Assembly (NCBI GenBank): GCA_025677825.1
Contig: JAIXMO010000065.1
Span: forward strand, 62,001-126,000
Source of the DNA: Helicostylum pulchrum
Lineage: Eukaryota; Mucoromycota; Mucoromycetes; Mucorales; Mucoraceae
Reading direction: 5' to 3'
DNA length: 64,000 nucleotides
Shown: one piece after another, positions 26,801 to 30,597 of the stretch
Position numbering within the stretch: position 1 is the first letter of the stretch
How the letters are laid out: every line of letters begins with the position of its first letter
Notes under the pieces: generated by a model
What the model was told of the DNA's origin: nothing
Databases searched by the model: none
What the model saw: only the letters and a program-made list of their open reading frames with translations
Position numbers and translations under genes: made by a program

Positions 26801-27446
26801 ATTAATTTTTTTATGGAAAAAGGTATTTTTTTTAAAATATAAAAAAGAAAAAAAGATTAACTAAACAAAAGTGAATTGCATTTATACTGCTCCCTCTTCT
26901 GCCGGAGTTTCAAGAACAGAGAGATAAATCGTATCATTTTAATTTTAACAGTTTTGATTTGTTTGTCGGGAGAAAGTATTAACAGGGTAAAACTTTTGTG
27001 TGTGTGTATTTGTTTATCCTAGCATATATGCTTACACCCGATCCGAACCAAAAGTTTGCTTTTTTAAAAGCTTGGAAGAAAAAAAAAAGTGTTTTGTATA
27101 CTTGTTACTATGAATCTGAAACAAAAAACAAGAGCGTTAAATAATATCCCGGACGAGAACTGATTGGAGAGTTTCTGGTTCTTATGCTTATTAAGAAAAT
27201 CAAGTACTGTAATAATTGAGTCATACGCTACTCCGGCATTCTCCATTAAAAAAAACTTGTATTTCCCACCTTTTCTTTAAAAACTAGCACCAATAGTATC
27301 TTCAAAAAAAAAAAAAGACAGAATATAATTTTAAAGGTTGCACGCCCCTTTTTATCATTGTACTTTGGTTTAAATAGTTGCTTTTGAAACCTTTCAGTTA
27401 TTTTTTAATTTGAAAATATGAACTTACGTGTATATATCTAAATCAC
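26801..27446. other. Intergenic region, no gene recognised
   Basis: About 650 bp, A+T-rich, between the small membrane-protein gene and the Fanzor relic. If the Fanzor element carried a guide-RNA region downstream of its ORF, it would be expected within this interval. I could not identify a terminal structure. Confidence 0.3.
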
Positions 27447-28250
27447 TTAAAGTGAAACCGTTTTCTCCACGGCGATCGGTCTGTTGAATGGATTTGGTCT
27501 ACCTTGACCCTCCCAAATAGAATTGGCAATGTCAAGCATATTTTTCGTAGCATTGACATCGCGTTGCCAAAGTAAATTACAAGGTTTTCCACATTTCAGG
27601 ATACCGTTGACTTTAACTCCATTTGAGAGCTTTGGAGGTTTCATTTTTTCTTCACCTTTACACATGTTACAAGTCTGTAATAAATACAGGTTATTTTTAA
27701 ACAACTGTTAAAAATAAATAAACTAAAATATACTTACTACAGAAGTTCTGAACTCGTTGATATCGACAATTGAAGCAAGACTCTGTTTCTGTCGACAGAT
27801 TATTTCTCTATATAGTATGTTAGTGACACCGGATTACCTTTTCTTCATCCTGACTGCATCTTTTTGCTTCACTCCGTCTCCAAAAACGACAAGTGAAACA
27901 AGTGTACTGTCTACAAATTTACTTGGTTTCCATTTACGACTGTATATTTTTAAGAACGTCGGCATTGATTATTAAATATATATTGCTGCATGCAAGCTTA
28001 CCTTTTCTCTTCAACATTGTCATTGCTGACGACCTTGATAGTCATAGAAGGAAAAAGGTGCAGATTCCTGGCTGTAAAACTGCAACAGGCGAGGCAGATG
28101 TTCTAGAAGATACGTTATATGTACTTTGTAAGTTTCAAGATTCACAGTTTTAGCAATGGGAATGTTAGTTTCAATATCTTTAATATTTTTTGCTATTTTC
28201 AACTTGAACATGGTCGGGTGTGTAGTAAAATATCTAAATTGTAACCTAGA
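27447..28250 (-). pseudogene. Fanzor (eukaryotic TnpB-like RNA-guided nuclease) pseudogene, C-terminal half
   Basis: Three or four minus-strand blocks. The block at about 28240-28020 carries LLQFYSQESAPFSFYDYQGR and then meets stops. The block at about 27958-27741 carries STLVSLVVFGDGVKQKDAVR, then an in-frame TAA, then SGVTNILYRE and SIVDINEFRTSV. The last block, 27687-27447, carries TCNMCKG, a KCGKPC pair and LLWQRDVNATKNMLDIAN, then a stop. FGDG...E(F/Y)(R/K)TS, a four-cysteine zinc finger and RDVNAxxN are the RuvC-II, zinc-finger and RuvC-III signatures of TnpB/Fanzor proteins. The RuvC-II Glu and RuvC-III Asp are both present. The premature stop(s) and missing N-terminal/RuvC-I part indicate a dead copy. 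The last exon has a normal acceptor (TTACAG), so an intron-containing eukaryotic copy decayed here. Confidence 0.7.
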
Positions 28251-29534
28251 AACAGTTAATTGTTTCTATAGCAATTTTTTTTTTTTTTGGGTTCTACAAC
28301 AACTCTTAGGTAACTGAGGGTACACCCGATAAACTTTGGGGAGGGAAAAAACTGTCGTCTTTGCATCAAGGACCAAAAAAAAATAAAAAATTAACATAGT
28401 TTCCCAAGTCTTTTGGACCTTTAACGGAACAATTTGAATAAAACCAACATATCTCACCTGGTCCCAAAGTATTATTTTTCGATATAAGTATCTTTTAATT
28501 GTAAACGAAAAAAAGAAAGGAAAAAGAGAGTGTATATTGTCTCAACTTCCACCATGTGTAAGAACGTTTCAAAAAGAACATTAGAAAAGAACATTAGAAA
28601 AGAACCACATAATTAAACACGAAGTTATAATGGTTGACACTGCTTTCTCGACCCTTTGGAAATACCGTTGTTTCTGTGTCACCAAGTTTACACTTAATAC
28701 AAAAGCATTAAAGAGGTACACATTTACGTGATTTTTATCTTTACAGTAAAAAAAAAAGTGCTTTAGATTAAACACCTTATGAAACGCTGTGGTTTTTTAT
28801 TTATATATAATTATTTAAGCATGATTCAAAAAAATATAATTTTTCATTTTAATTTCAATTCTAGCGCTCAAATGCAAAGCAAAGAGACCCGGTTCCCCCT
28901 CAAGCAAGCGGCCCGAACCCACCAGGCAGTGACAAAAGAGCCAAACCACAAGGCATCATTCAAAGGGCACACACTTACCCGAAGGTTAAGGTGGTGGCAC
29001 AGTATTCCCAAAGGTCCAAAAACGATTTCGGCAGGACATCTGAGCGCGGATAAAAAAAAGAGAAGAAAAAGAAAGAAAAAAAAGAAGGAAATTCGCCCCT
29101 TTTTATACTTCTTTTTCCACTCAAAATCAAATCGGGGAGGTGAAAAAATGAGCTTTAACTGTATATGGAGTGTTTTTTTTTGCAACTTCGGTGCGAGAGT
29201 CACGGACTCTATAAATAATATCCTAATGCTTATTAAATAAAACTCAGTTTAAAACCACCTCTCTTTCCCAACTCTTACATCCAAATGGTACACACTTGTA
29301 CAATAAAAATGATTAACTGGCGTATAAGTACGTAAATACGAGTATGGCGGTATAATTACGCCATGACTATTAAATGGATCACATGAGAACATAAAAGTGA
29401 CTCTATTTTATCTTCCTTATTTATCACTTCCTTTAAAAAAGTCTCTTTTCGCCTTTTTTTTGTTTCTTTTTTATGTTTATACAAACTGATATGGCTATTC
29501 TTAGATCAATGACCATCAGTAAAATTACTTTAGT
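28251..29534. other. Gene-poor stretch with a GC-richer island
   Basis: A+T-rich, except for about 28865-29055, which is noticeably richer in G+C and C-rich on the plus strand. That island has long open frames on both strands. None matches a family I know. A tiny tandem repeat of AAGAACATTAGAAA lies near 28575-28605. The upstream exons of the Fanzor relic could have lain here, but I could not establish them. Confidence 0.35.
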
Positions 29535-29714
29535 GAAAAGTAACAGGACAACTTTTAATTGACTGTGCAAATTAAACCAAGCATTTTTTCACCGGTGGTA
29601 AGTAACAGACAAAAAAGACTTGAAAAGTAACAGGACAACTTTTAATTGACTGTGCAAATTAAACCAAGCATTTTTTCACCGGTGGTAAGTAACAGACAAA
29701 AAAGACTTGAAAAG
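29535..29714. repeat. 87-bp tandem duplication (two full copies plus a short start of a third)
   Basis: The unit starting GAAAAGTAACAGGACAACTT at 29535 recurs without visible change at 29622, and GAAAAGTA starts again at 29709, giving a period of 87 bp. The two copies appear identical, which implies a recent duplication or an assembly-level artefact. Each unit contains TTTTTTCACCGGTGGTAAGT. No coding frame spans it. Confidence 0.85.
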
Positions 29715-30597
29715 TACCAGAAAATTTAAACCTTCTTTTTAGGGATATATATAGTTGATGATTTGGATTACTCTGTAAATGATCACTAGGTCTATTTCAT
29801 TTTATTTAACTTTGCGTCGTTGATCTTTATTGATTAGAATCGTGCCGTTACACCTACTATTTACACAGAAGTAAATAATTTGGACTATTACGCGATAAAC
29901 CCCCCCCCCCCATTATTGCTTTGAAAAGAGGATTTTACTGATTTCTATATGCAGAGAGTTCAACTAGTATTGTTTGGCTTGAGCTTTATATTGCTTGTCG
30001 TAATATTTGCAGGCTTGGACAAAGCTATCGTATATTTGATTTATGTTATTTATATTCCGGTAAAGTACAAATCACTACAAAAACTTTTTTTTTTTTCTGG
30101 AAATTTATATCTTATATTTCCACACACATGTAGATGTTGTATTTTATCAAATAGAATAATCATGTAAAAACCAAACCCAAACCCCCCAAAAAAAGAAAAA
30201 AAAAAACCCCCCTTTTTTTTTTTGCTAAAATAAACGATAGGAATTTGCTTTTTTATAAATATAATCCGTCGCGCTCATAAATACGTGTTTACTAAGAGAA
30301 AGTAAAAGGAAATGGCTCTGTAATAAGGAGTCTTTAAGCTTTTTACATACTATAAACCTTGTTGGCTAAAAAAAATTGTTTTCTTCATCAAATAAGACTT
30401 CTCAGGGTTTAATTTCAAAAAGGGTCCTTTTTTTTTTACGTGTGCCTTACAATTTTAGAGCAATCATACATCCGTTTGTATTGATCTTAATCACAAGAGG
30501 GTGTATTTTACACAAGACTATACATAAACTACTATTATCTTTTTTCAAAAAAAAAATCTATTGTTATGAATCAAACTATGGTATAATATATGAAATT
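29715..30597. other. Intergenic region downstream of the arrestin gene
   Basis: About 900 bp with homopolymer runs (C12-like near 29901, A/C/T runs near 30180-30225). No gene recognised. Confidence 0.3.

Follow-up and report, generated by a model that had tools for sequence, protein, structure and literature searches.

A dead, internally deleted copy of a Fanzor1 transposon in Helicostylum pulchrum, and a family guide-RNA region possibly split by an intron

The DNA analysed here, a stretch of 64,000 nucleotides from the Mucorales fungus Helicostylum pulchrum that we refer to as the window, contains, at positions 27376–28224 of the minus strand, the relic of a DNA transposon that carried a Fanzor1: a dead copy with internal deletions. 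TnpB has its eukaryotic counterpart in the Fanzor elements. Taken alone the relic is unremarkable, and its relatives elsewhere in the genome make up a clearly bounded Fanzor1/ghost system like that of Spizellomyces punctatus, with a covarying scaffold. We read the family as a Fanzor1 DNA transposon with inverted termini of about 15 bp, TA ends, no visible transposase and a 3′ guide-RNA region that would use the flank as guide, and we assign this reading as a whole, including the death of the window copy, a probability of roughly 0.88.

An earlier note, made from the letters of the window, had described a broken Fanzor gene at 27447–28250. These limits are corrected here to 27376–28224, a left terminus being found at 28205–28224, and the blocks that the note had named all lie on the minus strand in the order it gave: FYDYQGR (within an open stretch at 28020–28265), VVFGDG (within a second at 27834–27968), DINEFRTS (27741–27764), the zinc finger and RDVNATKN. 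Read in the direction of the gene, the copy starts with the left terminal repeat TACACACCCGACCATGTTCA (28205–28224; one mismatch to the family pattern), which is joined directly to the middle exon at a first deletion junction (28203–28204) where about 2.6 kb of the copy designated C102 is gone, including the N-terminus and RuvC-I. The lack of a RuvC-I/N-terminal part that had been remarked upon is therefore real, and its cause is deletion. The remnant of the middle exon (..KLKIAKNIKDIETNIPIAKTVNLE..FYDYQGRQQ; 28023–28204) has 97% amino-acid identity to the C102 copy and ends at a second junction (28021–28022), where about 277 bp are gone relative to C102 and a TGA/frame break follows FYDYQGRQQ near 28022. 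Both junctions show matches of about 2 bp by eye, and a further internally deleted copy is present on C95.

Beyond the second junction are a coding intron (GTAAGC..ACAG; 27940–28001), an exon with VVFGDG and DINEFRTS, the latter containing the alternative RuvC glutamate (27738–27939), a second coding intron (GTAAGT..TTACAG; 27675–27737) and the last exon, with the zinc finger, RDVNATKN (RuvC-III) and a stop codon at 27447–27449 (27447–27674). The splice sites of both introns, read from the sequence, are normal, as had been stated, and P0006, the database gene model of a relative on C147, reads EFRTS-V-TCNMC across the second. The in-frame TAA is also real (27834–27836), and none of the six closest copies has a stop at that codon. 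Two hairpins, discussed below, lie at 27443–27473, and are followed by the 5′ part of a predicted scaffold intron (27376–27427, with GTAAGT from 27427). In the alignment to relatives similarity stops at 27376, about 34 bp before the right terminus, so that the 3′ part of this segment and the right terminus are missing. Upstream of the relic, at 29540–29720, is a direct tandem duplication with a unit of about 90–100 bp (ACTTTTCAAGTCTTTTTTGTCTGTTACTTACCACCGGTG...). Scans of the window with Rfam at gathering thresholds and for tRNAs with the bacterial model gave no matches.

The identification of the relic as a Fanzor is supported both by paralogues in the genome, for which the earlier note had recommended a search, and by a profile match in a close relative. 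The last exon has at least 39 matches in the genome at E ≤ 0.001 and the first exon of the window copy at least 35, each count including the exon itself and each a lower bound, as the genome search scored the best candidates only. By itself, the window's last exon scores 19.3 bits against PF07282 (the TnpB/Cas12f TNB zinc-ribbon domain), below the cut-off of 26.3, and it is not one of the 18 places at which the genome search matched PF07282. The gene remnant is more than a chance reading of the letters: this exon recurs at 84–96% amino-acid identity in six other places, among the 39 in all. The C147 copy is 91% identical to it, and gene model P0006 of that copy reaches 26.8 bits, above the cut-off. 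Matches from the family to the solved Fanzor SpuFz1 (8gkh) are weak (E 0.017, 0.13 and 0.082, all above 0.001). The aspartate of the RuvC-I DPG motif is present in all 34 aligned relatives and absent from the window copy, and the glutamate of DINEFRTS and the aspartate of RDVNATKN are assigned from sequence as further RuvC catalytic residues; an AlphaFold model of relative P0027 (34 sequences; pLDDT 59.7, pTM 0.29) is too poor for placing them. Pfam matches seen in single copies (Met_synt_B12, VMAP-M14 and others) are below cut-off and were dismissed as chance.

Two further sequences deserve mention in their own right. Locus L002 (C158:323164–323349, minus strand) has a TnpB-like TNB domain in a stop-free frame of 476 aa and is not obviously of the window's family. 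P0005, a partial protein on a contig of 916 bases filed under the oomycete Albugo candida, has 72% identity to the C102 exon, reflecting either transfer or contamination.

Alignment of the paralogues, which had been proposed as a route to the element ends, defined both termini. The closest copy with both ends is 3796 bp long. The inverted termini start TACACACC and have TA at each end; the majority sequence is TACACACCCGGCCAT on the left and, as the reverse complement, TACACACCTGG(A/T)CAT on the right, the two being similar over about 15 bp and differing mainly at positions 9 and 12. Allowing for up to three mismatches, the left pattern is found at 28 places in the genome and the right pattern at 36, and the reversed-pattern controls at none. 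TA is present at 34 of the 36 right ends and exactly at 20 of 23 left ends, which is consistent with Tc1/mariner duplication. Eight left-right pairs were identified, spanning 258, 664, 962, 1787, 1874, 1911, 3796 and 5210 bp. Two of these (C102 and C132) enclose a fitting Fanzor last-exon match, one (C113) encloses Fanzor fragments on both strands, and five, short copies of 258–1874 bp, enclose no match to the first or last Fanzor exon. A last-exon match lies less than 400 bp upstream on the same strand at 10 of the 36 right ends. Near position 544541 of C57 (L080) is a 39-bp element with little beyond two termini.

No transposase was seen by eye in the open reading frames of the C102 copy or inside any of the paired elements. 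Matches to the Tc1/mariner-type DDE_3 transposase number at least 159 elsewhere in the genome (150 of 215 candidates scored), and these are a possible source of transposase in trans. Two candidates for a transposase of the element's own were rejected: at C104:99146 a decayed DDE_3 fragment lies 2.6 kb inward from the left end, but the stretch read contains no right terminus, and near C115 the DDE_3 match falls beyond the limits of the paired element. The stretch L078 (C104:99090–102300) has a Fanzor-element left end, then a region common to the short element on C96, with a decayed Tc1-like DDE_3 at 2617–2970.

The flanks of the termini are biased on one side. Among the 23 left ends read (28 found), C occupies position −1 in 18 (binomial P 7e-10) and A or T position −2 in 21; the bias of the right flank is weaker, 13 of 36 having G at +1 (left/right asymmetry, Fisher P 0.003). 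This bias predicts a target-adjacent motif (TAM) of about WCTA, and its one-sidedness is as expected of a TAM: the excised site would read WC-TA-right flank, and the guide would copy the right flank. The left flank of the window copy, AC at 28225–28226 beside the TA of the element, fits the WC|TA bias, with a candidate TAM at 28223–28226.

The earlier note had also expected a guide-RNA region beside the reading frame, and two covarying hairpins are indeed present at the gene end. H1 (5 bp, with a 7-nt loop in the majority) falls within the last codons or close to them; H2 (4–6 bp) is around or after the stop. Both are kept in the window copy (H1 at 27457–27473, H2 at 27443–27455), where they overlap the last codons and the stop. 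Covariation was scored on 26 stretches of 50–60 nt from the same genome, picked by eye from last-exon loci with decayed copies included; loci without a visible motif (including L002, L004, L015, L021, L022, L024 and L030) and ghost-type ends were left out, as was a second alignment (A3) in which one subfamily is out of register. There are several features of note. First, the structure pairs 87.9% of cells, as opposed to 32.1–47.9% when slid by 1–3 columns. Second, nine of the ten pairs show two-sided change (41 such cells), and the covariation score is 0.453 compared with at most 0.142 for the slid structures. Third, none of 500 shuffles reached the observed score and pairing; the number of further pair types was reached in 27 of 500. 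Fourth, H1 is paired in 96.2% of cells and H2 in 78.6%, the lower value being due in part to shifts of H2 within the alignment in some groups; with RNAalifold by itself, H1 is recovered and H2 is not. Finally, the base of H1 is a G-U pair in 23 of the 26 sequences, which argues for an RNA of this strand. Judged from these alignments, the hairpins fit a guide-RNA scaffold.

Between the hairpins and the element end, in several subfamilies (the group names used here are our own), is an intron-like segment of 51–89 nt that usually ends 7 nt from the element end. The order after H2 is TTTAGATNNNTACAC, GTAAG, a stretch rich in A and T, a CTRAC resembling a branch site, a run of T and an AG 7 nt before the end. 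We lean towards the interpretation that the Fanzor guide RNA is split by a spliceosomal intron of about 51–89 nt between the hairpins and the guide, with its 3′ splice site mostly 7 nt from the transposon end. The 3′ ends are CCAG|GTGTGTA or CTAG|TTGTGTA in group A and GTAG|AAGTGTA in group B, and group C, as judged from three loci, has GTACGT..CTGAT..AATAG with 22 nt left to the element end. Across the 36 group A-type right ends, GTRA(A/G) follows the TAC tail at the expected place in 22, YTRAY is present in 27 and AG in 35, a count that may be biased as the right-end search pattern itself contained AG. An exact genome-wide search for TTTAGAT..TACAC..GTRAG gave 10 places, and none in the control; seven of the 10 are known loci, and the other three scaffold-plus-splice-site matches are at C83:70472, C86:9904 and C125:125428.

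Read by eye, the coding introns that homology places in these genes have splice sites like those of the segment, with GTAAGT in three of five groups and ends of ACAG, ATAG or CAG. That coding intron is missing in at least 10 loci of groups A4 and B, and the scaffold segment is present in eight loci lacking it (seven B/A4 loci among the 18 representatives, and L033, read by eye). With splice sites and a scaffold start point of our own choosing, removal of the segment from 18 representatives leaves 57–61 nt in 12, 47–48 nt in four and 79 nt in two, and in nine of the 18 the minimum-energy fold after removal finishes with a hairpin directly abutting the element end. A strict composite splice test, its criteria fixed in advance, was passed by nine of the 18 representatives and by 4 to 32 of 1000 shuffles. 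Group B fails because AAGTGTA contains a later AG, group A4 because of its GTAATG, and group C because of a last exon part 22 nt in length. The spliced form has a lower fold z-score than the unspliced one in 16 of 18, but the scores are mostly not significant, and only two of 18 are below −2.

The main competing explanation, which we regard as possible but the less probable, is that the guide-RNA region is real and remains unspliced, the 51–89-nt segment being a loop, unstructured or variable, with UACAC..GUGUA as its closing stem, and the apparent splice signals arising by chance or serving another purpose. The modest pass rate in the composite test and the indecisive z-scores speak for it, GTAA could pair with an upstream TTAC in several subfamilies, and a genome search for intronless or 'spliced' DNA copies gave no match (one in the control). 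The available text on the S. punctatus Fanzor likewise reports a contiguous RNA, with a 75-nt scaffold and a guide of 14–15 nt (PMC10432273). However, the AG of the right ends is at a fixed place in 35 of 36 – with some bias from its inclusion in the search pattern – and its base reads T on the terminus strand in all 36 listed right ends, whereas the matching base is C in 26 of 28 left termini, a difference that a symmetrical repeat would not give. Moreover, the interior of the segment is hard to align between subfamilies, yet its start and end signals recur. Pattern matches that proved uninformative were a looser-pattern hit to a spliced copy (one stretch, in three overlapping loci, on the other strand; judged chance by eye) and a single match in viral contigs (L120), by eye inside an unrelated-looking ORF; prokaryote genomes gave none with the pattern.

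It seems improbable that the conserved 3′ region is simply a subterminal repeat bound as DNA by a transposase, with no guide RNA. Its position at the element end and its inclusion of the terminal repeat would suit such a role, but compensatory changes preserve the stems of H1 and H2, the sense strand shows G-U pairs, and the hairpins end Fanzor genes that have differing termini (groups A, B and C). That the window copy is a domesticated short protein, still expressed, can be set aside almost entirely, for although its last exon is open over 86 codons from stop to stop, the frame is broken, a TAA lies in frame, and RuvC-I and the right end are lost. With no RuvC-I, frame or right end, the window copy should neither cut, move nor yield a complete guide.

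Bacterial IStrons have an intron that, in later work, comes into conflict with the guide; removal of the intron predicted in H. pulchrum would make, not break, the guide. In the text available to us, IStrons are alike in that one end is common to an intron and to a transposon with a TnpB-type nuclease, and differ in that theirs is a group I intron, self-splicing and taking the whole element out, in contrast to the short spliceosomal intron predicted here inside the scaffold (PMC4227781). Close parallels exist with SpuFz1 of S. punctatus, for which the available text describes an element that has inverted ends and carries a Fanzor1, many short 'ghost' elements with these ends and no Fanzor, a right-end guide scaffold with the flank as guide, and conserved bases beside the left end that indicate the TAM (CA and CATA there, WC|TA here); it differs in that its locus is about 2.1 kb with one ORF, rather than about 3.8 kb with a multi-exon gene, and in that its 75-nt scaffold is contiguous, whereas in H. 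pulchrum an intron-like segment lies between two covarying hairpins and the element end (PMC10432273). In that text 'intron' is absent and 'splic' occurs once, in a reference.

PpFz1 is from another member of the Mucorales, Parasitella parasitica, and its RNA, in the text available, is 75 nt long and has a stem-loop of 4 bp next to the guide (PMC11423790). This size matches the spliced model (a scaffold of 57–61 nt in 12 of 18 representatives, its start point being our choice) plus a short guide, an agreement that is suggestive only. The TAM differs, being ATN in PpFz1, and in the same text 'intron' is absent and splicing is mentioned for cyclophilins and in a reference title only (PMC11423790). 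The available text on the SfAV Fanzor1 reRNA differs from our model in having 'intron' or 'splic' nowhere (PMC10711439). Fanzor-only elements with Mariner-like ends and TA duplications are described among the Tc/mariner Fanzor1 elements and resemble the H. pulchrum family, whose TA ends may stem from such a duplication; Fanzor1 is also reported, in the part of that account at hand, from Mucor, Rhizopus and Phycomyces, although these Mucorales examples are MuDR-like with 9-bp duplications or unclassified, and guide RNAs were then unknown (PMC3627910).

Homology, termini, deletions, hairpin covariation and flank bias are visible in the sequences; for mobilisation, TAM, cleavage and splicing we infer the following cycle. 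A complete element would encode a multi-exon RuvC/zinc-ribbon Fanzor1, and a structured guide-RNA region would run from the last codons to the right terminus and continue into flanking host DNA as guide. A TA-specific transposase acting in trans would move the element, and the Fanzor-guide complex would recognise the empty donor site (the right flank preceded by a TAM of about WCTA) and cut it, favouring restoration of the element; short copies keeping the termini and the guide region could ride along. In the subfamilies studied, splicing would yield the mature guide RNA by joining UACAC and GUGUA into a small hairpin at the scaffold end that directly abuts the guide; the scaffold would then be compact, at about 58 nt. 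The transposon guide RNA would thus be licensed by the host spliceosome and limited to nuclear, spliced eukaryotic transcripts, and maturation of the guide would be coupled to the Fanzor messenger RNA.

These observations bear on how Fanzor guide RNAs are made and on what keeps Fanzor elements in genomes. The H. pulchrum genome offers 36 right ends with different flanks, and hence many natural guides, together with a TAM-predicting left-flank bias and, as in S. punctatus, gene-free short elements that keep the guide region. We found no precedent for a splicing-dependent transposon guide RNA in the open-licence PMC literature searched. The intron-split guide RNA is a testable prediction: if it is true, splicing would be required for making a transposon guide RNA, and guide RNAs read straight off the DNA could be wrong in intron-rich hosts.
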